In this document: piece after piece, positions 483 to 39,572 of the stretch | Layout of the letters: each line of letters opens with the position of its first letter | Position numbering within the stretch: position 1 is the first letter of the stretch | IMG/VR virus record: IMGVR_UViG_3300034061_000726 | Location: 1 to 41,871 of that record | Strand: one strand, 5' to 3' | Source of the DNA: a virus | DNA: 41,871 nucleotides | The notes under the pieces: generated by a model | Database searches by the model: none | Seen by the model: the letters and a program-made list of their open reading frames with translations, nothing else | Told to the model about the DNA's origin: nothing | Program-made: the position numbers and the translations under genes

Positions 483-498
483 GTTTACTTGTGTAAAC
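483..498 (-). promoter_or_regulatory. GTTTAC palindrome, RNA polymerase copy
   Basis: On the coding strand this reads GTTTACACAAGTAAAC: perfect 6-bp arms around ACAA. The centre lacks a Shine-Dalgarno sequence, which instead follows separately as AAGGAGG. This shows the palindrome is kept independently of the ribosome binding site. It directly follows the T-run of the terminator at 503-532. Confidence 0.85.
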
Positions 499-502
499 TA
501 AA

Positions 503-532
503 GCCCCCGCCAATCTTACGACTGACGGGGGC
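503..532 (-). terminator. Terminator-like hairpin before RNA polymerase gene
   Basis: On the minus strand a stem begins GCCCCCG and closes with CGGGGGC, extended by three more pairs including one wobble, and is followed by TTTA. It lies after the DUF932 gene and before the polymerase gene. The T-run is short, so partial termination or RNA processing is also possible. Confidence 0.65.
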
Positions 533-573
533 GCTCACAGGAGAAACCTGTACCAGTTTACTGGGTTAGTTCG

Positions 574-1383
574 TCACGACTCAGCACTACTCTGAAATTC
601 AGCGACGATCTGCTCCGGCGTCTTGCGCTCCAACTCGAAGGCTTCCTTAGCCAAGCGGTGCAGGGAACCGAAGCGGGCGGTAGACGCGAACTCGCTGCGT
701 CCACGGAAGTACGACGTGAAGGCGTTGTACAGCGACCAGAGCGTCCTGGGCTTGAACTCGTGGTGCTCGGGCGTATGCCAATGCCGCCACACCTCACCGA
801 TGCCGGTCGCCGGGATGATGTTCCGGCGCATCGACTCCATGATCATGTAGTCGCTGCGGCTGCGATCGACGCTGACGTGCTCATACTCCTCGAACATGTC
901 GATCGTAGCGGCAGCACGGAGCCGCACGGTCTTCGCGGACAGCTGCACGAAGTGGTCGAGACGCTTGAACACGAGCCCCGTGTGGCGGGTCTTGAGCGCC
1001 AACTCCGCGCTCATCATGCCGTTCGTGCACACGGCGACCCGAGTTCCGACGCCCGTACTGATCGCACGGCTCTTGTCGTAACTGTTCATAATCGCCGCCT
1101 CGAACCCCAGGTCGTCGCGAACCGGGAGCCCCTCTCCTGCGAGGCTGAACTTCGTCACGAACTGGAAACCGTTGGAGAAGTGCACAGGTTCGGACAGCCT
1201 GAACCCCTCCTTCTCCAACTGGACGGCCCACTTGTTGACCAGATCCATCTGCGGGACGGCGCTGTACGAGGACGTCGAAGGCGGGACGGTGATCGCCCGG
1301 ACCTGACTCTCCGTGAGTGCTGAGCCCCAACGCTTGTTGGTGTAAGTGGACGGACGGGCGGGAATGGTTGCGATTGCAGTCAT
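574..1383 (-). CDS. DUF932-like early protein
   Basis: The 269-residue product resembles the DUF932 family of phage- and plasmid-encoded proteins. The clearest stretch is near residues 98-122, where an asparagine-serine-tyrosine-aspartate run is followed by a small glycine-rich segment and the V-C-T-N-G motif typical of that family. The molecular function of the family is not established. The ATG at 1383 uses AGGAG in the palindrome at 1388-1403 as its ribosome binding site. It is the second gene of the last early cassette, after the 122-residue gene, and is followed by a terminator and then RNA polymerase. Early expression from the sigma70 promoter at 1842-1870 is inferred. Confidence 0.8.
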   Translation of the reverse strand: MTAIATIPARPSTYTNKRWGSALTESQVRAITVPPSTSSYSAVPQMDLVNKWAVQLEKEGFRLSEPVHFSNGFQFVTKFSLAGEGLPVRDDLGFEAAIMNSYDKSRAISTGVGTRVAVCTNGMMSAELALKTRHTGLVFKRLDHFVQLSAKTVRLRAAATIDMFEEYEHVSVDRSRSDYMIMESMRRNIIPATGIGEVWRHWHTPEHHEFKPRTLWSLYNAFTSYFRGRSEFASTARFGSLHRLAKEAFELERKTPEQIVAEFQSSAES

Positions 1384-1387
1384 TGAA

Positions 1388-1403
1388 GTTTACTCCTGTA
1401 AAC
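1388..1403 (-). promoter_or_regulatory. GTTTAC palindrome carrying the Shine-Dalgarno of the DUF932 gene
   Basis: The coding strand reads GTTTACAGGAGTAAAC, four bases before the ATG at 1383 and two bases after the upstream stop. The AGGAG core in the centre and inner arm is the ribosome binding site. Confidence 0.88.
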
Positions 1404-1405
1404 AG

Positions 1406-1774
1406 TTACTTGGACTTGATGTGGTCGGCGAACGCATCAACGATGATGCGACGCAATTCGGGCTTAAGGGTCAAGTGGCGGAACATCTCTGCGGCAAGGA
1501 GGCGGACAAACCACTCGTTCCCCAAGTGCGACGCCATCGCGCTAACGCTGACTTTCTCAGCGAGACGGTCGTAGTTGCACTCCATCGTGTTCTCCGCCAG
1601 GCGGGCGACGTTAATGCGGGACGCGAGGTCTTCCATGTCAATCTCAGCTGCGAGGTCTTTCATGTCAATCTCAGCTGCGAGGTCGCTGAGGATGATCTCT
1701 TCCGCAACGTCGCTCATGCTGAGGTTGCTGACAATGTCGTTAAGGTCAATCGTCAAGGTCACATCGGTCGTCAT
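1406..1774 (-). CDS. Hypothetical 122-residue early protein with 9-residue repeats
   Basis: I do not recognise a family. The N-terminal half is acidic and built from repeated 9-residue units of the pattern D-L/V-A-x-E/R-I, seen near residues 22-58 and likely helical. The C-terminal half is a mixed, probably helical domain ending in basic residues. The ATG at 1774 has GGAG six bases upstream, just after the palindrome at 1785-1800. It is the first gene behind the sigma70 promoter at 1842-1870 and precedes the DUF932 gene, so an early host-directed role is likely but unproven. Confidence 0.8.
   Translation of the reverse strand: MTTDVTLTIDLNDIVSNLSMSDVAEEIILSDLAAEIDMKDLAAEIDMEDLASRINVARLAENTMECNYDRLAEKVSVSAMASHLGNEWFVRLLAAEMFRHLTLKPELRRIIVDAFADHIKSK
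1623..1676. repeat. 27-bp tandem repeat inside the 122-residue gene
   Basis: Two adjacent 27-base units starting at 1623 and 1650 differ at only one base. Each begins gcgaggtc, and a third partial unit starts at 1677. They encode the near-identical 9-residue units of the protein. The period is a multiple of three, so copy number could change without breaking the frame. Confidence 0.85.
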
Positions 1775-1784
1775 ATGTATCTCC

Positions 1785-1800
1785 GTTTACTTGTGTAAAC
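1785..1800 (-). promoter_or_regulatory. GTTTAC palindrome upstream of 122-residue gene
   Basis: The coding strand reads GTTTACACAAGTAAAC, identical to the RNA polymerase copy. The Shine-Dalgarno GGAG follows the palindrome instead of lying inside it. Confidence 0.87.
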
Positions 1801-1813
1801 ACTTGTGAGGCTT

Positions 1814-1834
1814 CGAGCAGGAACACCCTGCTCG
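1814..1834 (-). promoter_or_regulatory. 5' leader hairpin of last early transcript
   Basis: A perfect 8-bp stem (CGAGCAGG with CCTGCTCG) around a 5-base loop starts seven bases after the -10 box, so it sits at the very 5' end of the predicted mRNA. The other early promoters have unrelated sequences that fold the same way. Confidence 0.75.
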
Positions 1835-1841
1835 TATGTAC

Positions 1842-1870
1842 AGTATACCACAATTCGACTGAAATGTCAA
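1842..1870 (-). promoter_or_regulatory. Early sigma70 promoter (last cassette)
   Basis: The minus strand has TTGACA, 17 bases, then TATACT. The spacer ends in AATTGTGG, the same as in three other early promoters. It would be read by host RNA polymerase and drive the 122-residue and DUF932 genes, with readthrough to RNA polymerase. Confidence 0.88.
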
Positions 1871-1877
1871 GGGTATT

Positions 1878-1911
1878 AGCACAACGGGCGGGTCGCTCCG
1901 CCCGAAGTGCT
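1878..1911 (-). terminator. Terminator-like hairpin after the MGLD-type gene
   Basis: AGCAC and GTGCT arms flank an inner 7-bp stem CGGGCGG/CCGCCCG with symmetric two-base internal loops. It lies between the stop codon at 1921 and the next promoter. There is no T-run, so termination efficiency is uncertain. Confidence 0.55.
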
Positions 1912-1920
1912 ACAGGAGTT

Positions 1921-2289
1921 TCAGTAGTCACCGGCGTAGTACGGATTGATCCCGTCGTCAAGCAGGCGCGTGGCGAAGCCAACAAACTTGCCAATCTCGT
2001 AGATGTGGCGACCATCCACGCGATTCCCGAACCCGTACCAGTCGTCGCCACACGACAGCCAAATGCGGATGTCTTCAAGCAGGCGGTAGTCTATCCGCAC
2101 CTCGATGCCGTTGAACCTGTTCTCCTTGAGCTGTTCAATCGTGAGATCCTTATCGATCTCCTCTCGCAACTCACGGCGCCGAATCCAGACGTCACGCATG
2201 AACTCGTGCAGGTCGTAGCACTTGCGCCAGTAGGCGAACTCTTGTCTCTTGCTTCCGACGTTGTAGTAGGCGTATTGATCAAGTCCCAT
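1921..2289 (-). CDS. Conserved hypothetical phage protein, MGLD N-terminus
   Basis: The 122-residue product starts M-G-L-D-Q-Y and has a Y-W-R-K...L-H pattern near residues 20-29. I recognise this as a widespread but uncharacterised small phage protein type. The ATG at 2289 has AGGAG seven bases upstream; in-frame codons further upstream are rejected because they overlap the previous gene and lack such a site. It is the last gene of the cassette that includes the GP88-like gene. No catalytic motif is evident. Confidence 0.8.
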   Translation of the reverse strand: MGLDQYAYYNVGSKRQEFAYWRKCYDLHEFMRDVWIRRRELREEIDKDLTIEQLKENRFNGIEVRIDYRLLEDIRIWLSCGDDWYGFGNRVDGRHIYEIGKFVGFATRLLDDGINPYYAGDY

Positions 2290-2303
2290 GTCGTTGCTCC
2301 TGT

Positions 2304-2519
2304 TTAGGTTGGTTCTGAATCGTAAATCTCCCACAGGCGGAGAACGCGGTCTAGATACTCATCCTCGTCAGTAGTGATCCAATAAAGGTCACACCACGGT
2401 GGATCGCGAAGCGTATGGATGAAAGGAATTGCACGGTTGAGTTCTCCTGGGGTTGTTGCGTATCGAATTACGCTTGAAATGCTGTCGCTGATGAACGTTG
2501 TTCGAGGTTCGATGGTCAT
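2304..2519 (-). CDS. Hypothetical 71-residue early protein
   Basis: A small acidic protein with a W-C-D-L-Y-W-I segment and an acidic D-E-D-E-Y stretch near its C-terminus. No family recognised. I use the ATG at 2519; a TTG at 2537 would overlap the stop of the GP88-like gene and add six residues. Neither has a strong Shine-Dalgarno sequence, so expression may depend on coupling to the upstream gene. Confidence 0.65.
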   Translation of the reverse strand: MTIEPRTTFISDSISSVIRYATTPGELNRAIPFIHTLRDPPWCDLYWITTDEDEYLDRVLRLWEIYDSEPT

Positions 2520-2533
2520 TCTTGAATTGTAGT

Positions 2534-3229
2534 TCAATGCTTGCGGTAGTCAACGTTGCGGATCGCACTAGACCAACAAGCACGACACGAACCACACTTG
2601 CCGTCGTTGTCTGGCGCTTGGCATTGGAACCCGACGCCGGCACTCACGGACGAAGTGTGTTGGTGCTCGTTGTTCGTGTATGCGACACCGATCATTGCCG
2701 CGCTGAGCCTGACAACCAAGTTGGTCGGCGGCGTGATGCCGGAGACGTACTGCTTCTCGCGTGTAGGCAGCCAATGACTGACTTCGGGCGTGTACTTCGC
2801 AACGAGGCAGATCAACTTGTAGTGGTTTACACCAAGTAAATCGCCGGAGTCGTGCCACCGAAAGTGCGTGTCGCCTGACTTGCGGATGGCCTGAACCATG
2901 CCGACAGCCCAAGCGATTGGGTCTGACTTGAGGCGATCGAGACGGCGCTGCATTGCTGCCTCGACGTTCTTGAAGACGTACCGACCCTTGAGCGCGTAGC
3001 AACCGCTGCACACGCTGCCCTTGACCTTTCGGAGCTGACTGCCCGTGCGGCAGATCTTGGCGCTGATCGACCAGGCGTGGCCCGGCATCTTGGATGGGGC
3101 TGACAAGCCGCCCGTGACTGAATCTAACTGACCCCAAGTCCTGACCGCCGGCGCCGCGGCTAGCGCTGCGACGAAGTCGTCCTCGGATACTGAGGCAATG
3201 TCTCGTCCTGTGAGCACGTTCAACTGCAT
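2534..3229 (-). CDS. GP88-like phage protein
   Basis: The 231-residue product resembles the gene-product-88 domain family of phages. Visible features are a K-M-P-G-H-A-W-S-I segment near residues 47-55, a Cys-x-x-Cys-Tyr-Ala motif (C-S-G-C-Y-A near residue 75), an N...R repeat region after it, an R-W-H-D-S-G-D-L motif near residue 125, and a C-terminal C-G-S-C-R-A-C cluster suggesting metal binding. The family's function is unknown. The ATG at 3229 has AAGGA upstream, just after the stop of a 30-codon membrane ORF. A near copy of the early palindrome (2825-2841, one arm mismatch) lies inside this gene. Confidence 0.85.
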   Translation of the reverse strand: MQLNVLTGRDIASVSEDDFVAALAAAPAVRTWGQLDSVTGGLSAPSKMPGHAWSISAKICRTGSQLRKVKGSVCSGCYALKGRYVFKNVEAAMQRRLDRLKSDPIAWAVGMVQAIRKSGDTHFRWHDSGDLLGVNHYKLICLVAKYTPEVSHWLPTREKQYVSGITPPTNLVVRLSAAMIGVAYTNNEHQHTSSVSAGVGFQCQAPDNDGKCGSCRACWSSAIRNVDYRKH

Positions 3230-3233
3230 GGTT

Positions 3234-3326
3234 TCAATCCTTTTTGAAGTAAGACGGGAGGAAGTACGCTGCTGCGCTGATGGCTATTGCGACGTACAGC
3301 GCGACTACTAAGTGACGAAAGGTCAT
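3234..3326 (-). CDS. Putative 30-residue membrane protein
   Basis: The ATG at 3326 opens 30 codons ending in TGA. The middle is a continuous hydrophobic helix (L-V-V-A-L-Y-V-A-I-A-I-S-A-A-A-Y-F-L), followed by a short K-K-D tail: a single-pass membrane peptide. It lies between the palindrome at 3338-3353 and the GP88-like gene, filling what would otherwise be a long leader. The AGGAG in the palindrome is about 16 bases away, which is long, so translation is less certain than for its neighbours. Confidence 0.55.
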   Translation of the reverse strand: MTFRHLVVALYVAIAISAAAYFLPSYFKKD

Positions 3327-3337
3327 GTGGGTGGGTG

Positions 3338-3353
3338 GTTTACTCCTGTAAAC
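3338..3353 (-). promoter_or_regulatory. GTTTAC palindrome, GP88 cassette start
   Basis: The coding strand reads GTTTACAGGAGTAAAC, identical to five other early copies. It opens the cassette with the 30-codon membrane ORF and the GP88-like gene. Confidence 0.87.
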
Positions 3354-3366
3354 AAACTGTGTGAGC

Positions 3367-3383
3367 CGGAAGACGATCTTCCG
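3367..3383 (-). promoter_or_regulatory. 5' leader hairpin, GP88 cassette
   Basis: CGGAAGA and TCTTCCG form a perfect 7-bp stem with a TCG loop, eight bases after the -10 box. The sequence differs from the other leaders but the stem length and position match. Confidence 0.75.
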
Positions 3384-3391
3384 ATGTGTAC

Positions 3392-3420
3392 ATTATACCA
3401 CAATTCGACTGATCTGTCAA
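3392..3420 (-). promoter_or_regulatory. Early sigma70 promoter (GP88 cassette)
   Basis: The minus strand has a perfect TTGACA, a 17-base spacer ending AATTGTGG, and a perfect TATAAT. Confidence 0.92.
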
Positions 3421-3463
3421 GTGTTTTACACCGCAGCGGGAGCCGGCCCTGGCCCCCCGCGAT

Positions 3464-3474
3464 CGCTATCATCG
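3464..3474. repeat. ATGATAG motif, copy 1
   Basis: The 11-mer cgctatcatcg (minus strand CGATGATAGCG) lies in the gap between a terminator and the next promoter, surrounded by GC-rich GGCC/CCGG runs. The same core occurs in the other two intercassette gaps. Confidence 0.6.
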
Positions 3475-3491
3475 GCCGGCGCGGTGAAGCG

Positions 3492-3525
3492 AAAAAAACC
3501 CCCACGTCCACGGGCGACGCAGGGG
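3492..3525 (-). terminator. Intrinsic terminator of the central early cassette
   Basis: On the minus strand a 10-bp stem starting CCCCTGCGTC and closing GACGTGGGGG is followed by seven T. It lies after the 89-residue gene and the palindrome at 3547-3562. Confidence 0.82.
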
Positions 3526-3546
3526 CAAACGGATGAGTCGGGTTGA

Positions 3547-3562
3547 GTTTACACAGGTAAAC
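3547..3562 (-). promoter_or_regulatory. GTTTAC palindrome spanning a stop codon
   Basis: The coding strand reads GTTTACCTGTGTAAAC. The TAA stop of the 89-residue gene is part of the right arm, so the palindrome encodes the last residues and the stop. A terminator follows. Confidence 0.85.
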
Positions 3563-3818
3563 GGGTTAACCGCTCGACCAACAGACCGCGGTAGTACCCG
3601 CGCAGCCAGGCCAAGCAAGTGGCGGCTGGATAACTGCACATCTCAAAGTAAATCGGATCGTTTGAGGTGTCGTTCCTAGAGACTGCGGTAACGACCCACT
3701 CCGATGAAGCCCCGCGCCGAAGCCCCACCTTACGCGCGTCTCCGAGCTCGTAAAGGCATTCGTTGATCCCGGCGACAAAGTCTTCGAGTTCTTCCTTTGA
3801 AACCCTTGGCTTTCGCAT
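3549..3818 (-). CDS. Hypothetical 89-residue early protein
   Basis: No family recognised. The N-terminus is basic, followed by a predicted helix (S-K-E-E-L-E-D-F), and the C-terminal part has Y-F-E-M-C-S-Y-P and a W-L-R-G-Y-Y-R-G run. The ATG at 3818 overlaps the TAA of the preceding 91-residue gene (TAATG), with AGGAG nine bases upstream, indicating translational coupling. Its stop codon lies inside the palindrome at 3547-3562. It is the last gene of its cassette. Confidence 0.75.
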   Translation of the reverse strand: MRKPRVSKEELEDFVAGINECLYELGDARKVGLRRGASSEWVVTAVSRNDTSNDPIYFEMCSYPAATCLAWLRGYYRGLLVERLTRLPV

Positions 3819-4093
3819 TAGTAGGTGCTCCTGTTGGCGGTGCTCGTTTCGGCCATGACGTAGTACACTCCCCGCTCGAAGTGCTTCAAGAACTGACCGA
3901 CCTGGTACAGCGTCTTGATGTGATCTCCGGTGAACTCGAATTCGCGGATCGTTTCGGGCGACATTGTGCCCAACTCTTGAATCAATTCGACTTGCCGGTA
4001 CAGCGTCGGCCAATCAAACGGGACGGGAACAAAGGCGCGTCCGGGGTTAGCGTGGTCGATCGAGGCGGGAGGAAGAGTGCAAGGGTCTTTCAT
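3818..4093 (-). CDS. Hypothetical 91-residue early protein
   Basis: No family recognised. The sequence has a proline-rich N-terminus, a helical L-Y-R-Q-V-E-L-I-Q-E-L-G segment near residues 31-42, and a Y-Q-V-G-Q-F-L-K-H-F segment near residues 63-72. The ATG at 4093 uses AGGAG of the palindrome at 4098-4113, nine bases upstream. It follows the Api92-like gene and overlaps the next gene by one base. Confidence 0.77.
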   Translation of the reverse strand: MKDPCTLPPASIDHANPGRAFVPVPFDWPTLYRQVELIQELGTMSPETIREFEFTGDHIKTLYQVGQFLKHFERGVYYVMAETSTANRSTY

Positions 4094-4097
4094 GGTG

Positions 4098-4113
4098 GTT
4101 TACTCCTGTAAAC
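4098..4113 (-). promoter_or_regulatory. GTTTAC palindrome between Api92-like and 91-residue genes
   Basis: The coding strand reads GTTTACAGGAGTAAAC, beginning two bases after the upstream TAA and ending four bases before the next ATG. It fills nearly the whole intergenic space. Confidence 0.88.
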
Positions 4114-4115
4114 GG

Positions 4116-4613
4116 TTAGTTGCAGTCTGAAAACGAGAACTCGGACAGACGGACGGGCATCTCAGAGCGCGCTTCACGCTCCCATTCGACGCCGACTTCC
4201 CTGAACTTTTTGATCCACGAATAGGTCAAAGACCATCGTGTGAGCGAAAACTCTTCGGTGAAGTCGATTGTGAATTGCAGCGCTTTGTAAATGCGCGCGA
4301 GTTCAATGATCACAGGCAACGGCGGAGCGTTGGCCGTGAGGAACTCAATGCGGGCGCAGCCGTGCTGCAACTCCCAGCGTTCGCAGTCTGTGGCGTCCCA
4401 CTTCGTGCCCCAATGCTTGTTGCGCCATTCCTCCCATGCGGAGCCCGTGAGCAACTCGGGCGGCATCTGAACCGCCATATTGAACGTGAATTCGGGGGAG
4501 CACCGCCCAAACTCTCGGTTTCTTGCAACAGCCGCTTTGGCGTTGCGAAGGAAGGACTCGATTTCGTCGTGAGACCCGTGGACGTGAAGGACGTTTTGAA
4601 CGTAGTTTGCCAT
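4116..4613 (-). CDS. Api92/DUF1281-like ferredoxin-fold protein
   Basis: The 165-residue product resembles the plasmid and phage family that includes YubB and Api92 (ferredoxin-like fold). The N-terminus M-A-N-Y-V-Q-N-V-L-H-V-H-G matches the usual start of that family. The stretch near residues 46-75 (M-A-V-Q-M-P-P-E-L-L, then W-R-N-K-H-W-G-T-K-W-D-A) is its hallmark. The biochemical role is unknown. The ATG at 4613 uses the palindrome AGGAG. A terminator hairpin abuts the palindrome upstream, so this gene is reached only by readthrough or by a promoter I cannot see. Confidence 0.83.
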   Translation of the reverse strand: MANYVQNVLHVHGSHDEIESFLRNAKAAVARNREFGRCSPEFTFNMAVQMPPELLTGSAWEEWRNKHWGTKWDATDCERWELQHGCARIEFLTANAPPLPVIIELARIYKALQFTIDFTEEFSLTRWSLTYSWIKKFREVGVEWEREARSEMPVRLSEFSFSDCN

Positions 4614-4614
4614 T

Positions 4615-4630
4615 GTTTACTCCTGTAAAC
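4615..4630 (-). promoter_or_regulatory. GTTTAC palindrome fused to a terminator
   Basis: The coding strand reads GTTTACAGGAGTAAAC, one base before the ATG at 4613. Its first bases (GTTTAC) act as the end of the preceding terminator hairpin. Confidence 0.88.
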
Positions 4631-4658
4631 CCCCGCCCGGAGTTCATCCGGGCAGGGG
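4631..4658 (-). terminator. Terminator-like hairpin upstream of Api92-like gene
   Basis: On the minus strand CCCCTGCCCGGA pairs with TCCGGGCGGGG around TGAAC, and TTT follows. It is nearly the same sequence as the terminator at 6231-6262. The short T-run and the position directly before a ribosome binding site suggest attenuation or processing instead of full termination. Confidence 0.65.
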
Positions 4659-4671
4659 ATTGGTTGGTTGA

Positions 4672-5121
4672 TCAGACCGGGCAGGTGGACATATCGAGGA
4701 ACTCCGAAACCATCGGGGTCGGCGCCATCGGGCGCACCTTGTCCGTCAGACACTTCTGAAGGACGGCGTAGAGCGCGTCGGTGCTGAGGTGCTGCCAATT
4801 GATGATCTGGGTTCCCCACATCGTGTAGGCTTGCATCGCCATGTGCGCGAACGCCATCTTGGCGTCTTGGCGTTCGCCGTCGGTCAGACCGAGTTCGTCG
4901 GCCCTGTCGGCGAATTCCTTCTGGGTCGGCAGGATGCAGCCGAGGTACTCCGCGAACACTTCGCGTTCCGTGCTCTCGGGCGCGATTTCGCTGTCGTACT
5001 TCAATGCGGCCTGCAAGATGCTGCACTTTTCGGCCTCGATCAACTTGTTGATCCCGCGGTTGCGGATCTTGCGGAGCTTTTCAATCTTGGCTTCGTTGCG
5101 CTGTGCGTAGTAGGTGAACAC
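4672..5121 (-). CDS. Hypothetical 149-residue early protein
   Basis: No family recognised. The sequence looks mostly helical: a basic N-terminal helix (Q-R-N-E-A-K-I-E-K-L-R-K-I-R), then E-R-E-V-F-A-E-Y-L near residues 52-60 and a long Met- and Ala-rich helix near 86-100. The start is GTG at 5121, with AGGAG of the palindrome at 5126-5141 nine bases upstream. It is the first gene behind the sigma70 promoter at 5183-5211. Confidence 0.78.
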   Translation of the reverse strand: MFTYYAQRNEAKIEKLRKIRNRGINKLIEAEKCSILQAALKYDSEIAPESTEREVFAEYLGCILPTQKEFADRADELGLTDGERQDAKMAFAHMAMQAYTMWGTQIINWQHLSTDALYAVLQKCLTDKVRPMAPTPMVSEFLDMSTCPV

Positions 5122-5125
5122 TTGT

Positions 5126-5141
5126 GTTTACTCCTGTAAAC
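5126..5141 (-). promoter_or_regulatory. GTTTAC palindrome before 149-residue gene
   Basis: The coding strand reads GTTTACAGGAGTAAAC, four bases before the GTG start. Confidence 0.88.
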
Positions 5142-5155
5142 CGGACTCTGACTGG

Positions 5156-5172
5156 GCGGAGACGTTCCCCGC
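5156..5172 (-). promoter_or_regulatory. 5' leader hairpin, third cassette
   Basis: GCGGGGA and TCTCCGC form a 7-bp stem (one G-U pair) with an ACG loop, ten bases after the -10 box. The same 17-base element occurs at 5968-5984. Confidence 0.75.
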
Positions 5173-5182
5173 CGCTGAGTAC

Positions 5183-5211
5183 ATTATACCACAATTTGGC
5201 TGACGTGTCAA
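5183..5211 (-). promoter_or_regulatory. Early sigma70 promoter (third cassette)
   Basis: Perfect TTGACA, 17-base spacer ending AATTGTGG, and perfect TATAAT on the minus strand. Confidence 0.93.
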
Positions 5212-5293
5212 GCGTATTAAGTGGAGCGAATTGACTACAGTTGTTGTCAAGTGTAGTAGCTACGATCCAACTGGTCGGCCAGGGCCGGCCCCC

Positions 5294-5304
5294 CGCTATC
5301 ATCG
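5294..5304. repeat. ATGATAG motif, copy 2
   Basis: Same 11-mer core as at 3464. Here CCCG and CGGG arms flank a 7-base loop, making a small hairpin in the terminator-to-promoter gap. Confidence 0.65.
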
Positions 5305-5321
5305 GGCGCTGGGCACGGCAA

Positions 5322-5348
5322 AGAAAAACCCCGGATTGCTCCGGGGTT
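5322..5348 (-). terminator. Intrinsic terminator of second cassette
   Basis: On the minus strand AACCCCGGA, a GCAA loop and TCCGGGGTT are followed by a T-rich run (TTTTTCTTT). This is a textbook intrinsic terminator. Confidence 0.9.
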
Positions 5349-5358
5349 CGAGGTGCGT

Positions 5359-5374
5359 GTTTACTCGTGTAAAC
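5359..5374 (-). promoter_or_regulatory. GTTTAC palindrome at end of second cassette
   Basis: The coding strand reads GTTTACACGAGTAAAC and shares its first base with the TAG stop of the 110-residue gene. The terminator follows about ten bases later. No start codon follows, so this copy has no role as a ribosome binding site. Confidence 0.87.
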
Positions 5375-5706
5375 TACGCGACGCCAGGAATGTTGTACCA
5401 TCCGTTGTACGTTTCGTGCGCCATCTTAACGACGGCTTCCTTGAAGCACTCAGGGAAAGCGATCACGACGGCACACCAAGAACAATCCTCCTCAAAGAAC
5501 TCGTTGCGATCGAACGAGCACGCCTTAAGGTGGTCGGGCATCCGGTCGTACCGCGCTCTGCTGAGTCTAAACCCTCGGTGTCGTGGGCCATCGATCCACT
5601 CGATTCCGTCGGCCACGAGAGAGCGCCTGACTTCGGGATGTAGGCTCCACTCAGGAGCGGGATACATACCGAACCCGAACCGCGGATATTCCGTCGTGGC
5701 GCTCAT
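5374..5706 (-). CDS. Hypothetical 110-residue early protein
   Basis: No family recognised. It is rich in aromatic residues (Y-P-R-F-G-F-G-M-Y-P near the N-terminus, Y-N-G-W-Y-N near the C-terminus) and has two close cysteines (E-D-C-S-W-C). The ATG at 5706 overlaps the upstream TGA (ATGA) and has GGAG upstream; a GTG seven codons earlier is less likely. Coupled translation with the zinc-ribbon gene is inferred. Confidence 0.75.
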   Translation of the reverse strand: MSATTEYPRFGFGMYPAPEWSLHPEVRRSLVADGIEWIDGPRHRGFRLSRARYDRMPDHLKACSFDRNEFFEEDCSWCAVVIAFPECFKEAVVKMAHETYNGWYNIPGVA

Positions 5707-5936
5707 TGCTCCACCCCCTGACGGCACAAGCCGCAGCGACCGGTGTCGTCGCCGTCGTTCGGCTCACCGCAGTTCCAGCACTTCTCGTCCCACTCCGTCG
5801 CCGGGATTGCTCCGGGCAGGGGCAGGGCGAGGTCCGCCTTCATCTTGGCGATCAGCGCGTTCATTGCCGCTTGCAGCTGATTAAGTTCCCGCATGTCGGC
5901 TTGCATCTGTTCACGGGTCAAGGATTCGTTGCACAT
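5703..5936 (-). CDS. Small zinc-ribbon early protein
   Basis: The 77-residue product has an N-terminal helix with a heptad-like pattern (near residues 8-38), suggesting a coiled coil. The C-terminal part contains C-W-N-C-G and C-G-L-C-R, four cysteines spaced as a zinc ribbon. This suggests binding to nucleic acid or to a host protein, but the target is unknown. The ATG at 5936 uses the palindrome AGGAG at 5938-5953. It is the first gene of its cassette. Confidence 0.8.
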   Translation of the reverse strand: MCNESLTREQMQADMRELNQLQAAMNALIAKMKADLALPLPGAIPATEWDEKCWNCGEPNDGDDTGRCGLCRQGVEQ

Positions 5937-5937
5937 G

Positions 5938-5953
5938 GTTTACTCCTGTAAAC
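5938..5953 (-). promoter_or_regulatory. GTTTAC palindrome before zinc-ribbon gene
   Basis: The coding strand reads GTTTACAGGAGTAAAC, one base before the ATG at 5936. Confidence 0.88.
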
Positions 5954-5967
5954 TCGGCTTGAGACGA

Positions 5968-5984
5968 GCGGAGACGTTCCCCGC
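5968..5984 (-). promoter_or_regulatory. 5' leader hairpin, second cassette
   Basis: GCGGGGA, ACG loop, TCTCCGC: a 7-bp stem with one G-U pair, ten bases after the -10 box. Confidence 0.75.
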
Positions 5985-5994
5985 TGCTGAGTCC

Positions 5995-6023
5995 ATTATA
6001 CCACAATTAGGCTGACGTGTCAA
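5995..6023 (-). promoter_or_regulatory. Early sigma70 promoter (second cassette)
   Basis: Perfect TTGACA, 17-base spacer ending AATTGTGG, perfect TATAAT on the minus strand. Confidence 0.93.
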
Positions 6024-6075
6024 GGGAATTGAATCCGCTGCTGACCTGAGCCGCCAGCCGCAGATGACCACCGCC

Positions 6076-6086
6076 CGCTATCATCG
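6076..6086. repeat. ATGATAG motif, copy 3
   Basis: Same 11-mer as at 5294 with CCCG/CGGG arms. Two copies in this gap are 90 bases apart. Confidence 0.65.
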
Positions 6087-6165
6087 GGCGCCACGCGCCG
6101 GGCCGGCAACCGAAGCGTTTCGGAATCGGAGCCGCCGGAGCTAGCCTGAGCCCTGAGCCATGACC

Positions 6166-6176
6166 CGCTATCATCG
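6166..6176. repeat. ATGATAG motif, copy 4
   Basis: Same 11-mer and CCCG/CGGG arms as copy 3. Confidence 0.65.
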
Positions 6177-6230
6177 GGCGCCCGGCGGCGGACGATGCCA
6201 GGCCGACCAAGCGCCCAACGTGCCAACGAT

Positions 6231-6262
6231 AAAACCCCCGCCCGGATTACTCCGGGCAGGGG
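6231..6262 (-). terminator. Intrinsic terminator of first early cassette
   Basis: On the minus strand CCCCTGCCCGGA pairs with TCCGGGCGGGG around GTAA, followed by TTTT. It ends the 237-residue gene cassette. Confidence 0.85.
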
Positions 6263-6270
6263 CAGGGCGA

Positions 6271-6286
6271 GTTTAGCGGTGTAAAC
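6271..6286 (-). promoter_or_regulatory. GTTTAC palindrome at end of first cassette
   Basis: The coding strand reads GTTTACACCGCTAAAC and begins immediately after the TGA stop. One arm base is changed (CTAAAC instead of GTAAAC), making it the only imperfect copy of the twelve. Confidence 0.75.
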
Positions 6287-7000
6287 TCAGGCCGTAACCT
6301 TCGCGCCACGCTTCGGCGCGATCGCGGGATAGGCGGCGAGAACCAGCAGCCGACACTCGTTCAGGGCATCGACGACGCGGCGGGCGCCGTCGGCATCCGC
6401 GGAGGGATGCGCGAGGGCCGCAGCGACCGCCCGCTTCAATTCAGCGGCGATCCGTTCGCACGTGATGCCCGCAACGGGCGCGGGCGCTTCGGCGTCGTCG
6501 CTGGCATCGCTGGCGTCGTCGTCGGCATCGCTGGCGTCGGGCGTCGTCGTCGTCGAGCCCGTCGCTGCCGGAGCGGGCCGGAGCGATTCAGCGACCGCGG
6601 CGGCGAGGGCGTCGGCATCGCAATTGCGAAGGTAATCCGCGCGGGCGGCGGCGTCCTTCGCCTTACTCAGGGACTGCAACGTCCGTGCAACGTATTCCGA
6701 CGACACGAGCGAAGTACCAGCGTCACGTTCGGCGTCGAGCCAGCGACCGAACGTAACCAATTGCGACACGCGGCCCTTGGACAGGACCTTGACGCCGGAA
6801 TTAACCGTGTACCACCGATAGAATCCCTTGCCGTCGGCGTCAACGTAACCCTTGCATTCGTCGTGCTCACTCGCCGCGGCGAGAACCACGGCAAGGGCGG
6901 AAGTGCCCGACGAGTATGCGGCGGCGGCGGTCGTCAATGCGCCCACGAGACGCGAACCCGAGAGAGCGAGAACGGAAGCGATAGAAGCGTAGCGAGCCAT
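6287..7000 (-). CDS. First early protein, Ala-rich, 237 residues
   Basis: No family recognised. Residues about 1-150 form an Ala-rich, probably helical domain containing an F-Y-R-W-Y-T-V-N-S-G segment. Residues about 155-185 are a low-complexity Thr/Asp/Ala/Ser acidic linker, and the last 60 are a second helical domain. The gene is visibly richer in G and C than its neighbours. The start is ATG 7000, with AGGAG inside the 18-bp palindrome at 7004-7021; an upstream in-frame start would read through the palindrome and is rejected. As the first gene to enter the cell on the inferred genome map, a host-takeover role is plausible but unproven. Confidence 0.8.
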   Translation of the reverse strand: MARYASIASVLALSGSRLVGALTTAAAAYSSGTSALAVVLAAASEHDECKGYVDADGKGFYRWYTVNSGVKVLSKGRVSQLVTFGRWLDAERDAGTSLVSSEYVARTLQSLSKAKDAAARADYLRNCDADALAAAVAESLRPAPAATGSTTTTPDASDADDDASDASDDAEAPAPVAGITCERIAAELKRAVAAALAHPSADADGARRVVDALNECRLLVLAAYPAIAPKRGAKVTA

Positions 7001-7003
7001 TGT

Positions 7004-7021
7004 GTTTACTCCTGTGTAAAC
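7004..7021 (-). promoter_or_regulatory. GTTTAC palindrome, first gene (6-base centre)
   Basis: The coding strand reads GTTTACACAGGAGTAAAC: the same arms with a 6-base centre that still gives AGGAG. Confidence 0.85.
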
Positions 7022-7040: not shown

Positions 7041-7057
7041 CCGGGCAACGTGCCCGG
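7041..7057 (-). promoter_or_regulatory. 5' leader hairpin, first cassette
   Basis: CCGGGCA, CGT loop, TGCCCGG: a perfect 7-bp stem, 14 bases after the -10 box. Its sequence is unrelated to the other leaders. Confidence 0.7.
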
Positions 7058-7071
7058 ATGCCGACGCGAAT

Positions 7072-7100
7072 AGGGTAGCACAATTCCGATGGCAGGTCAA
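7072..7100 (-). promoter_or_regulatory. Early sigma70 promoter (first cassette, weaker)
   Basis: The minus strand has TTGACC, 17 bases, TACCCT. The spacer shares AATTGTG with the other early promoters, but the -10 is poor. Confidence 0.65.
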
Positions 7101-8957: not shown

Positions 8958-9167
8958 CTAATCGTCCATCAGGTCATCGATATCGTTCGGAAGGCGGTCA
9001 CGGAGCTCCTTCATAGCCCGAGCTAGGGTGAGGCTGGACCCGTTTGAGCCCTTCAGGAAAGCCTCGTAAGCCTTGACCGCCATCGCAGAAACGACGACAA
9101 GGTCGATGTAGATTTCGTCGTCGTCCGGTGGATCCATGTCGTCGTTGTACTTCACAGGCTTACCCAT
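8958..9167 (-). CDS. Acidic 69-residue protein after large terminase
   Basis: No family recognised. The protein has acidic ends (D-D-D-E-I near the start, D-D-L-M-D-D at the end) and a helical middle. The ATG at 9167 has a strong GAGGAGGGG site upstream and overlaps the terminase stop by 16 bases. Confidence 0.72.
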   Translation of the reverse strand: MGKPVKYNDDMDPPDDDEIYIDLVVVSAMAVKAYEAFLKGSNGSSLTLARAMKELRDRLPNDIDDLMDD

Positions 9168-10807
9168 GTGTCCCCTCCTCTGTCTTTGCGGCCAACGGCG
9201 GACTCCATAAACCTCGCCAATTCCCTGTCGAGCATCTCGCCCTTACGGACGGCAATGCGCCGGTCAGCGTCTTGAGCCATCTGTTGGACCCAATAGCCCA
9301 CAGCCATCGAGAGGACGTCCAGGCGGTCATCGTGGGCAAGGGAGCCCCTAGCGCGGGTAATGCGGCTCATTTGGTAGAAGAGCTGGTACTGAAGGCGGGT
9401 TTCGGACGACTTGTCTGCCGTCGTGTCGTAGTCCTGGCGGATCAGCCTGTCGTTGACTACGAGCCTGTGCTGGTTCATCACGGGCTCCAAAGTGTCAATG
9501 ATCCGCTTCTCTTTCTGGATGTTGTGTCTAATTGACTCGACAGTACACGGGTATTCGCGAATCAAGTGGGGCTTAAGCAGCTCCTCAAACATCCCGTCGC
9601 CAAAGTTGGATTCCACGAGGATGAGGTTTACCTTCTGCTTTTTGGCGATCTGGACGAGTTCATTCATCGTCTTTTCGCTGTAACCCCCGCTGAGCCCGCC
9701 GGCATCCGTGACGTACAGGAAGCCATTAAGCATCTTGACGACCGCGTAGGCCGTTTCGTCCGCACCCCTACCCGAGGGGTCGATTGCCATCACGGAGCCC
9801 GTATAGGGGATCCACGAGCCCGTAATAGCCATCGGGCGGTAGTACCTGTCCCCGTTGAAACCGACGCACGGGACGTCCGTAACCGCGTTCCTAATGTCCG
9901 CAGCCCAAATAGGCTTCTCTGGGGCAGACTCGTCGTTTAGGGCCATGACGATCAAGTCGGACAGTTTGAGCGGATACCGATCAAGGTCCGTCAACGTCGT
10001 GTCGAGCATGAACTGAAGGTCAAAGCCAGACCGACCGTAGCCTAACTCACGTTCCTTCAGACTGAACTCGTCAAAGCGCTTAGGCTCCGTCGGAGTCATG
10101 TCATCCGGCCCGTCGGCAATCATCGGAGCAAGCCGCTCACCGTAAGTCGTCCGACGCTTTGCGTCCGGATACCTGGCGGGCCAAATGCGAATCACATACC
10201 CGCGCTCCGCGAGTAGGTTGTAAATCGACTGCTCCGTCTGGGGCGTACCGAGGTAGATGATCTGCCCCCCAGGCTTCAGGACGGCCTCGAACTCCTTGAC
10301 CGTCTCAGCAAGCTTATCCCGGAGCGTGATCGTTGCGCTGTTGTTTGAGCTCTCGACGTCGTCCGCAATGATCAAGTCTGCGCGGCTACCCGTGATCTGA
10401 CTCGTAATTCCCTTGGACACTACGGACGGGGCGTGACTTGCCGGCGCAGGGCCGACGTCGAAGGCGATCTTTGAGTTGCGTTGCGTTTCCTTCGGGCGCA
10501 GATGTTGCAGCATCGGCATCTCATGGATCAGCCGAAGCGTGAACGTCGAGAAGTCGTCTGCGCGCTGCTTCGATGCAGACACGACGAGAATGTTCTTCGT
10601 CGGGTCCAGAAGAAGCGTGTGCACGACGAACGCGCTCGTGATCCAACTCTTGCCTACGCCGCGGAACGCCTCGACAATGCGTCGAGAAGGCCCGTGTTGA
10701 ATGAAGTCCGCAATGTCGTACTGGATTGGGGTCGGATCCGGTAGGCCGAGGTGATCCCAAACCAAGTACAGGAAGTTGCGAAAGTCTTTGATCCTGGGGT
10801 CGATCAT
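9152..10807 (-). CDS. Terminase large subunit (T7 gp19-like)
   Basis: The 551-residue product is the ATP-driven DNA packaging motor and nuclease. The Walker-A-like motif is R-G-V-G-K-S-W at residues 49-55; the Walker B region reads L-I-I-A-D-D-V-E near 145. The nuclease domain starts near residue 335 with M-A-I-D-P-S-G-R-G and has a later A-H-D-D-R-L-D near 515. T7 gp19 is 586 residues. The ATG at 10807 overlaps the small subunit's TGA (ATGA). Gene order (fibre, coiled-coil membrane protein, small, large) matches the end of T7-like late operons. Confidence 0.95.
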   Translation of the reverse strand: MIDPRIKDFRNFLYLVWDHLGLPDPTPIQYDIADFIQHGPSRRIVEAFRGVGKSWITSAFVVHTLLLDPTKNILVVSASKQRADDFSTFTLRLIHEMPMLQHLRPKETQRNSKIAFDVGPAPASHAPSVVSKGITSQITGSRADLIIADDVESSNNSATITLRDKLAETVKEFEAVLKPGGQIIYLGTPQTEQSIYNLLAERGYVIRIWPARYPDAKRRTTYGERLAPMIADGPDDMTPTEPKRFDEFSLKERELGYGRSGFDLQFMLDTTLTDLDRYPLKLSDLIVMALNDESAPEKPIWAADIRNAVTDVPCVGFNGDRYYRPMAITGSWIPYTGSVMAIDPSGRGADETAYAVVKMLNGFLYVTDAGGLSGGYSEKTMNELVQIAKKQKVNLILVESNFGDGMFEELLKPHLIREYPCTVESIRHNIQKEKRIIDTLEPVMNQHRLVVNDRLIRQDYDTTADKSSETRLQYQLFYQMSRITRARGSLAHDDRLDVLSMAVGYWVQQMAQDADRRIAVRKGEMLDRELARFMESAVGRKDRGGDTWVSL

Positions 10808-30052: not shown

Positions 30053-30789
30053 TAGAACACGTTAGAGACGCGGAGCTTGTTTTCGACGTCCTGGCGATAC
30101 GCCGGATCGCGGCGATACCGCGGGTCGCGCATTGCCGATGTGACCTCAGCAATGCTTCGGAAGGCCGAAGTGCCGTTAGTGCTCGTAGAGCCCTGCACAA
30201 GGCGCGGAGAGCCCGTAGAAGCCGCGTACTGAGCCGACAGACCACGAATCGCAAACATGATCATCGACTGATCGCCCGATTCGATTGCGTTGTTGAACGC
30301 ATCGATCTCTGCTTCTGGAATGTTCTCAGCCGCCCACTCCGTCATCGCCTGATACTGCTCAGGACCGCCAACCGCGGAGTAGACGCTCGAAACCTGGGCT
30401 TCAGCGACCGCCTGCTGACCGTGAATGTAAGCATCCACGACATCACGAGGAATGCCCATCGTCTCCAGTTCGCCGTAAGACTGATCAGACAGCGTGCCGT
30501 TCTGCGCGAACTCCTGCGAGAAGTAATTAAACCGCTCCTGCGGCACAGCGTCGGTGGGGGGAGGAGTCTGGTTTACCTTTGTAAACTTCGTCTCAAGTTC
30601 GCTGTAAGCGCGGGCAAGTTCTTCCGGAGACTGAAACTTCTCAGGAAGCCATTGCGGACGAGCCGCCGGCTGCTGAGCCGCCTGATTTGGAGCCATCTGT
30701 CCAGCGGCAAATCCGTCACTAGGACGAGCCGACGGTTCGGAGATGCGAGTGGCTTCGGAGCCGTGGATTTCGATTCGTTCGGTAGACAT
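30052..30789 (-). CDS. Capsid assembly scaffold protein (T7 gp9-like)
   Basis: The 245-residue product is Gln/Ala/Pro-rich and acidic in its N-terminal part, with the W-L-P-E-K-F-x-S-P-E-E-L-A-R-A-Y-x-E-L-E region near residues 47-66 that is typical of T7-like scaffolds. The C-terminus is basic and helical for capsid binding. It sits between portal and capsid. A perfect GTTTAC palindrome (30571-30586) is embedded in the coding sequence right after this region. Confidence 0.9.
   Translation of the reverse strand: MSTERIEIHGSEATRISEPSARPSDGFAAGQMAPNQAAQQPAARPQWLPEKFQSPEELARAYSELETKFTKVNQTPPPTDAVPQERFNYFSQEFAQNGTLSDQSYGELETMGIPRDVVDAYIHGQQAVAEAQVSSVYSAVGGPEQYQAMTEWAAENIPEAEIDAFNNAIESGDQSMIMFAIRGLSAQYAASTGSPRLVQGSTSTNGTSAFRSIAEVTSAMRDPRYRRDPAYRQDVENKLRVSNVF
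30571..30586. promoter_or_regulatory. GTTTAC palindrome inside scaffold gene
   Basis: The coding strand reads GTTTACAAAGGTAAAC: perfect arms, 4-base centre as in the early region. It is coding (in-frame reading includes T-K-V-N), so regulatory function is uncertain. Confidence 0.5.
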
Positions 30790-39543: not shown

Positions 39544-39572
39544 AAGATACCAAAGCCATCTAAAGATGTCAA
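39544..39572 (-). promoter_or_regulatory. Sigma70-like promoter for the replication block
   Basis: On the minus strand a perfect TTGACA, 17 bases, TATCTT. The -35 box overlaps the RNA polymerase stop codon. Its spacer differs from the early promoters, so it is not a close duplicate of them. Confidence 0.65.

Follow-up and report, generated by a model that had tools for sequence, protein, structure and literature searches.

A palindrome array in the early region of a T7-like podophage as a candidate operator system of a phage-encoded regulator

Early gene expression of T7-like phages is described in textbooks as a one-way process without repressors. The IMG/VR virus record IMGVR_UViG_3300034061_000726, whose full 41,871 nt constitute the window analysed here, is a complete, circular T7-like podophage genome in which the palindrome GTTTAC-N4-GTAAAC recurs throughout the early region. 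Judging from sequence comparisons, this palindrome is probably the DNA operator of an early-gene regulator encoded by the phage itself, for which the first early gene, A, most likely codes. We assign this reading a probability of about 0.6.

The L5-type repressors of cluster A mycobacteriophages recognize stoperators, which occur in many copies genome-wide at promoters and in short intergenic gaps and are proposed to block both initiation and elongation, with a specificity that differs between phage groups (PMC9283540). Stoperators are 13-bp, asymmetric sites of temperate siphophages, bound by a monomer and oriented with transcription (PMC9283540). The array of the window likewise repeats one site many times, both at promoters and between genes. 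However, this site is symmetric instead of 13-bp, asymmetric and transcription-oriented, is found mainly in the early region of T7-like podophages, and often carries a Shine-Dalgarno (SD) sequence. Moreover, no Pfam, NCBIfam or PDB match to an L5-like repressor, composed of a helix-turn-helix (HTH) and a stoperator domain, was obtained for A or other early genes. Cluster K mycobacteriophages contain SAS, a short repeat with AGGAG immediately before many non-structural gene starts, and ESAS inverted repeats, which differ between subclusters (PMC3203893). The SAS consensus GGGATAGGAGCCC is non-palindromic over its length and exclusively start-associated (PMC3203893). Similar to SAS, seven copies of the window repeat place AGGA or AGGAG a few nucleotides before start codons, but the word is a different one, its centre varies, copies also lie before terminators and on promoters, and a candidate regulator co-occurs with the array.

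The operators OA and OB of the IncP plasmid RK2 are palindromic. These short operators (12 bp and 16 bp, respectively) are present in several copies and are read by the global regulators KorA, a small repressor, and KorB, a ParB-family CTPase, which repress their own and other operons, also at a distance (PMC11790492). A mobile element's own proposed regulator with several copies of a short operator is common to RK2 and the window, whereas the operator sequences differ, and A gave no Pfam or PDB match to ParB, KorB or KorA by sequence or fold. In temperate T7-like phages such as LUZ100, MarR has been proposed to silence the T7-type RNA polymerase via sites around its promoter, a hypothesis credited to Boeckman et al. 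2022, and phages controlled in this way carry an integrase and a MarR gene (PMC10134795). Neither an integrase nor a MarR-family regulator was detected among the window proteins scanned, a set that leaves out some small open reading frames (ORFs). Both schemes propose a regulator that silences the T7-type RNA polymerase at its promoter; in the group of the window, however, the sites form an array of ten or more and the candidate regulator is unrelated to MarR. The array thus departs from each of the four systems in at least one defining feature and appears to be a variant of phage multi-operator regulation, which is nearest in function to L5 stoperators, KorA/KorB and MarR control, and nearest in appearance to SAS of cluster K. 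No report of an operator array of this kind in a T7-like phage was found among the open-access papers covered by the search, subscription papers lying outside it.

Nearly every gene of the window, including all genes of the early region, is located on the minus strand. The gene order is typical of T7-like phages, with the early region followed by T7-type RNA polymerase, single-stranded DNA-binding protein, endonuclease, primase-helicase, DNA polymerase, structural genes and terminase. The ends of the record (1–381 and 41491–41871) overlap by 381 bp at 99.2% identity, with three differences between both copies, and the record is circular or terminally repeated. Twelve palindromes are located between positions 483 and 7021, eleven of them with perfect arms, and one further copy lies outside the early region:

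7004–7021, minus strand: palindrome before gene A, exact arms, N6 centre ACAGGA
6271–6286, minus strand: palindrome after the gene A stop and before a terminator, one arm base changed, stem pair broken
5938–5953, minus strand: palindrome with SD, AGGA centre, before gene B
5359–5374, minus strand: palindrome at a cassette end, before a terminator
5126–5141, minus strand: palindrome with SD, before gene D (GTG start)
4615–4630, minus strand: palindrome with SD, adjoining a GC-rich hairpin, before gene E
4098–4113, minus strand: palindrome with SD, before gene F
3547–3562, minus strand: palindrome at a cassette end, before a terminator
3338–3353, minus strand: palindrome, AGGA centre, in the leader of the gp88-gene unit
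1785–1800, minus strand: palindrome, ACAA centre, before gene K, SD outside
1388–1403, minus strand: palindrome with SD, before gene L (DUF932)
483–498, minus strand: palindrome, ACAA centre, between a terminator and the RNA polymerase start, SD outside
30571–30586, minus strand: perfect palindrome within the scaffold-protein gene

The exact pattern with N4 is matched by ten early copies (483, 1388, 1785, 3338, 3547, 4098, 4615, 5126, 5359 and 5938). On the minus strand, the twelve centres read AGGA (six copies), ACAGGA, ACAA (two copies), CTGT, ACGA and ACCG. Nine copies precede start codons, namely those of A (7000), B (5936), D (5121, GTG), E (4613), F (4093), a short ORF (at about 3325), K (1774), L (1383) and the RNA polymerase (469), and the remaining three (3547, 5359 and 6271) are situated between a stop codon and an intrinsic terminator. 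The SD core AGGA or AGGAG forms part of the centre in seven copies, and the ATG mostly follows 1–4 nt past the repeat. At 3338, the SD core is about 15 nt from the ATG and hence too distant for a normal ribosome site. Under a first-order Markov model of the window, 0.0008 exact sites are expected in 41.9 kb and 0.00012 in 6.5 kb; with up to three mismatches allowed, 27 matches were observed compared to 10.2 in shuffles. A rescan of 483–7021 thereby bears out a preliminary description of this DNA in its counts (nine start-associated copies and three at cassette ends, a single copy with one change, AGGA in seven start-site centres, ACAA with an external SD at the RNA polymerase and the 122-residue gene) and in its statement that the motif is not due to chance. 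Its further claim that the palindrome organizes the whole early region holds for nearly every gene or transcript boundary, but not for genes I and J (1921–3229), which have no palindrome of their own, nor does it cover the perfect copy in the scaffold gene.

In line with a motif search proposed in the preliminary description, relatives with the same arms were found by scanning viral contigs for GTTTACAGGAGTAAAC; all relatives used for comparison are metagenomic contigs. GTTTAC arrays of 5–18 copies are present in six related phages (L005/G001, L008/G002, L014/G003, L021/G004, L023/G005 and L024/G006). The early genes of these phages are very different and the arms are constant, while the centres vary (AGGA, TAGGA, CCGG, ATCT, AAGT and others), and additional copies are located on both sides of the polymerase gene. 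Arrays of the same layout with other arms were found in further terminase relatives (66–71% identity): GTCTAG in L138 (11 copies), L109 (7), L107, L108, L131, L155 and L125, TTCTAG in L157 (11 copies), L163 and L156, TGAAAC in L133, and, on shorter contigs, GTCTCA (L128), GTCTAA (L111) and ATCCCG (L151). A more distant phage contig, binned to a Neomarinimicrobiota genome, contains eight copies of TGTCCC-GAG(G)-GGGACA before small genes (L280:11241–13510). Shuffled loci yielded two copies at most. The lineages with other arms have copies before starts, after stops before terminators, and about 40 bp past early −10 boxes; in every lineage the palindrome starts +28 to +54 (mostly 36–45) past the −10 box.

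Since the lineages with other arms keep these positions with other letters and with the SD outside the palindrome, it is position and palindromic form that are conserved, and neither the letters nor the embedded SD. Accommodation of the SD within the repeat is specific to the GTTTAC lineage, and SD presentation was rejected as the core function. Among 80 terminase relatives in genomes of many phyla the GTTTAC array was found in none, most matches of a pattern scan with NN before GGAG were attributable to chance, and the isolate genomes AP013544, CRP-227, Lo5R7ANS and LUZ100 displayed no comparable array. In LUZ100 (L301), GCGCAT-AAG-ATGCGC is present at 386 and 587, at both annotated host promoters P1 and P2, and this pair is possibly a two-copy version of a similar scheme in an isolated phage. 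The isolated roseophage CRP-227 (L299) carries TTAGGT-TGC-ACCTAA at 4296 and 6861, immediately preceding and following the RNA polymerase gene.

In related phages the corresponding sites carry other words, and these come with a distinctive first early gene. The palindrome is therefore probably the binding site of a phage-encoded master regulator of the early genes, for which gene A is the candidate:

6287–7000, minus strand: gene A, 237 amino acids, first early gene, candidate palindrome-binding regulator

The array co-occurs with a first early gene of 200–290 amino acids. Profile searches with A revealed homologues in loci showing GTTTAC, GTCTAG and TTCTAG arrays, given enough flank, and every locus with an A match has the palindrome; for L128, L111, L151 and L133, which have other arms, an A-like gene of similar size and position was chosen by eye and not by profile. 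Where A is lacking in the same terminase clade (L116, L118/L093), the array is missing too. L093 retains the gp88, DUF932 and RNA polymerase genes, and the gp88 and DUF932 genes were rejected as regulators, given that L093 has both and no array. The preliminary description had expected relatives with the same genes and no motif to speak against its reading; such a phage exists in L093/L118, but gene A is absent there as well, so that this case speaks for the regulator reading and not against it. Palindromes with the same arms flank A exactly on both sides in 16 of 21 cases, compared to 0 of 15 late control ORFs, and in the window and L008 a variant copy is located on one side. The A proteins of the GTTTAC lineage are about 30% identical, and 12 of their 35 invariant residues fall into one 17-residue stretch, SKGRxSQxVTxGxWxDA (0 of 20000 permutations), which an AlphaFold model places with high confidence on one long helix. 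In the A proteins of other lineages, those with NTCTAG words show xSTxYxW or a similar sequence in the equivalent helix. This helix looks like a recognition helix, the HTH-like appearance being a visual resemblance only. Most A proteins are basic. The earlier suggestion of one regulator governing early genes and polymerase fits these data, with A now named as the phage-encoded candidate. Binding of a host regulator, by which the phage would sense the state of its host, could be envisaged because the region is driven by host-type promoters and the arms are not the same in lineages whose hosts may differ. We regard it as the least probable of the readings considered, as the lineage-specific arms track the phage gene A, which is sited between two copies, and a host protein does not explain why the array is missing from phages without A (L093/L116/L118).

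Within the early units, a sigma70-like promoter is followed by a GC-rich 5′ hairpin, a palindrome about 40 bp past the −10 box and the start codon. Later genes of a unit often have their own palindrome, and three units end with a palindrome followed by an intrinsic terminator. Four of the early promoters are near-perfect TTGACA-17-TATAAT. Promoters and terminators listed here are consensus calls:

7072–7100, minus strand: weak sigma70-like promoter of gene A, TTGACC-17-TACCCT
7041–7057, minus strand: 5′-leader hairpin of gene A, read from the sequence
6234–6263, minus strand: intrinsic terminator after gene A
5995–6023, minus strand: sigma70-like promoter TTGACA-17-TATAAT, palindrome begins 41 bp later
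5967–5985, minus strand: 5′-leader hairpin, NCG triloop, covaries across copies
5326–5349, minus strand: intrinsic terminator
5183–5211, minus strand: sigma70-like promoter TTGACA-17-TATAAT, palindrome begins 41 bp later
5155–5173, minus strand: 5′-leader hairpin
3498–3526, minus strand: intrinsic terminator
3392–3420, minus strand: sigma70-like promoter TTGACA-17-TATAAT, palindrome begins 38 bp later
3366–3384, minus strand: 5′-leader hairpin
1842–1870, minus strand: sigma70-like promoter TTGACA-17-TATACT, palindrome begins 41 bp later
1814–1834, minus strand: 5′-leader hairpin
503–532, minus strand: intrinsic terminator before the RNA polymerase gene

All early leaders open with a GC-rich, small-loop hairpin, the stem of which covaries between copies and phages; these hairpins probably protect the 5′ ends of early mRNAs. 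A second repeat, CGATGATAGCG on the minus strand and GATGACAGCG in relatives, is located in terminator-to-promoter spacers (3464–3483, 5294–5313, 6076–6095 and 6166–6185).

The flanking of genes, terminators and promoters by one word, in a region where early gene content turns over, would also be expected if the palindromes were boundaries of exchangeable gene cassettes, maintained by virtue of recombination that reshuffles early genes at a shared word and not by a regulator reading them. In L023 genes E and F are absent and the junction is situated at a palindrome (window 3566–4630 versus L023 at about 9100–9400), which suggests cassette exchange at palindromes. However, a 16-bp word is short for homologous exchange, and recombination leaves unexplained the fixed distance from the −10 box across lineages, the copies at polymerase promoters and the way in which all arms of an array change along with gene A, so that we consider maintenance by recombination improbable.

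Several observations distinguish recognition of DNA from recognition of RNA. None of the arm changes yields a compensatory or wobble pair, and all five non-coding copies with a single change have a broken pair (6271 in the window, copies upstream of the first promoter in G004 and G002, a copy after gene K in G002 and one before a start codon in G006). The adjacent leader hairpin of the same transcripts, in contrast, displays compensatory pairs at several positions. In G001, G002 and G004, the copy before the RNA polymerase is located after a terminator and directly upstream of TATAAT or TATACT. In L109 and L157 it directly follows TATACT, which puts the expected transcript start inside an arm. 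Upstream of the −35 box of the first early promoter, a perfect copy or one with a single change is present in three relatives. Copies within or directly at the predicted polymerase promoter, others ahead of the first promoter, the stem-breaking mismatches and the wholesale exchange of arms at constant positions together favour a DNA operator over an RNA or translational element. A centre length that is near-constant per genome (N4 in 11 of 11 copies in L157, N3 in 11 of 11 in L138) argues in the same direction.

As an RNA element, the palindrome would form a 6-bp hairpin with the SD core in its loop, which could be bound by a translational repressor or serve as the cleavage site of an endoribonuclease, by which cistrons would be separated and 3′ ends trimmed. 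Formation of this hairpin is possible, at −3.4 kcal/mol for the 16-mer, its loop length would be variable (N4–N6), and most copies lie within predicted transcripts beside start or stop codons, seven of the window copies with the SD core in the loop. We nevertheless judge this unlikely: the arms fail to covary next to a leader hairpin that does, copies overlapping or preceding a promoter give no complete RNA copy from that promoter, and other lineages have the SD outside the palindrome. RNA structure was accordingly rejected as the main cause. The preliminary description is supported in its points that the arms do not covary and that recognition is by sequence; it had left the choice between an operator and a translational control element undecided, of which the DNA operator is now favoured and the translational role disfavoured. 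A promoter of the phage RNA polymerase was judged unlikely too, the word being symmetric, located at stop codons and within ribosome sites, and different from other repeated elements.

If the palindrome is an operator, A would be made first, from its own host-type promoter, and would then bind, presumably as a dimer, to some twelve sites. These lie at or next to the presumed RNA polymerase promoter, at about +35 in the other early leaders, in gaps between genes and directly ahead of terminators. Repression would be the most likely outcome, with initiation blocked at the polymerase promoter and host RNA polymerase road-blocked along early transcripts at the leader, intergenic and pre-terminator sites. 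The position of gene A between palindromes suggests autoregulation. Accumulation of A may thus shut off or damp early transcription and could time the switch from early to middle expression. In the GTTTAC lineage, the free 4-bp centre would have been reused for the SD core. Alternatively, A might possibly act as an activator at the polymerase promoter, where the −35 box of the GTTTAC lineage is poor.

Several findings weigh against A as the reader of a DNA operator. A gave no match to a DNA-binding family of Pfam, NCBIfam or PHROG, whether by sequence or by profile, sequence comparison to the PDB matched no solved structure and gave low-complexity or unrelated hits, and a fold search with two AlphaFold models of A against the PDB gave no useful match. 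Homology between the A proteins of the GTTTAC lineage and those of other lineages was not supported by profile comparison, and the A protein of the window itself has a pI of 5.3. Centre lengths are mixed within the GTTTAC group (N4, N5 and N6) and elsewhere (N3 and N4), which a rigid dimer would not easily tolerate. The copy at the RNA polymerase of the window has no clear −10 box beside it, and the promoters and terminators have the status given above. Finally, gene K tracks the array in lineages with coverage of its region (L023:6946–7341; L157:19597–19953). The gene is listed here together with three other genes:

1406–1774, minus strand: gene K, 122 amino acids, acidic-looking 9-residue repeats
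574–1383, minus strand: gene L, DUF932, family match
2534–3229, minus strand: gene I, GP88 family, family match
39569–41842, minus strand: T7-type RNA polymerase, main part, with the start codon at 469 reached across the circular join

The presence of K in array-bearing lineages and its absence between gp88 and DUF932 in L093 would be explained if the regulator were K, or a K–A pair, and not A alone. This seems highly unlikely, as K has a repetitive, acidic-looking sequence that lacks a basic patch, and A is the gene which is bracketed by palindromes and transcribed first. The repeat of K reads sDlAaeIdm over nine residues, and its number differs between close relatives.

Outside the early region, the palindrome within the scaffold-protein gene is found at the same position and with perfect arms in G001, G002 and G004, i.e. 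in four genomes including the window. In a set of four genomes (relatives L095, L097 and L099) the same codons are used at this site and the centre bases differ. The codons for F, V and N are identical across four genomes, whereas only 29% of the identical residues of the gene keep identical codons; this codon identity is suggestive only. The word GGTTATCGG recurs several times close to the left end of the early region in G004 and G006 (L021 minus strand, first 300 bases).

A more far-reaching possibility, which we put forward as rather doubtful, is that a branch of T7-like phages in which no integrase was detected possesses a global early silencing circuit. A fast-evolving first protein and its 5–18 matched operators would switch specificity together, forming mutually orthogonal ‘immunity groups’, and the operators would double as ribosome-binding sites. 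Such a circuit might enable the phage to pause, time or share infections, as in superinfection exclusion or a carrier state. If A does read the palindromes, the T7-like scheme would gain a feedback layer, in the form of an array of many operators and an early regulator that varies along with them. The A proteins would then represent a so far unstudied DNA-binding protein family whose 15–16 bp sites are matched and orthogonal, and these would be usable as genetic parts. Moreover, the function of start-associated phage repeats would be turned into a direct question of binding.

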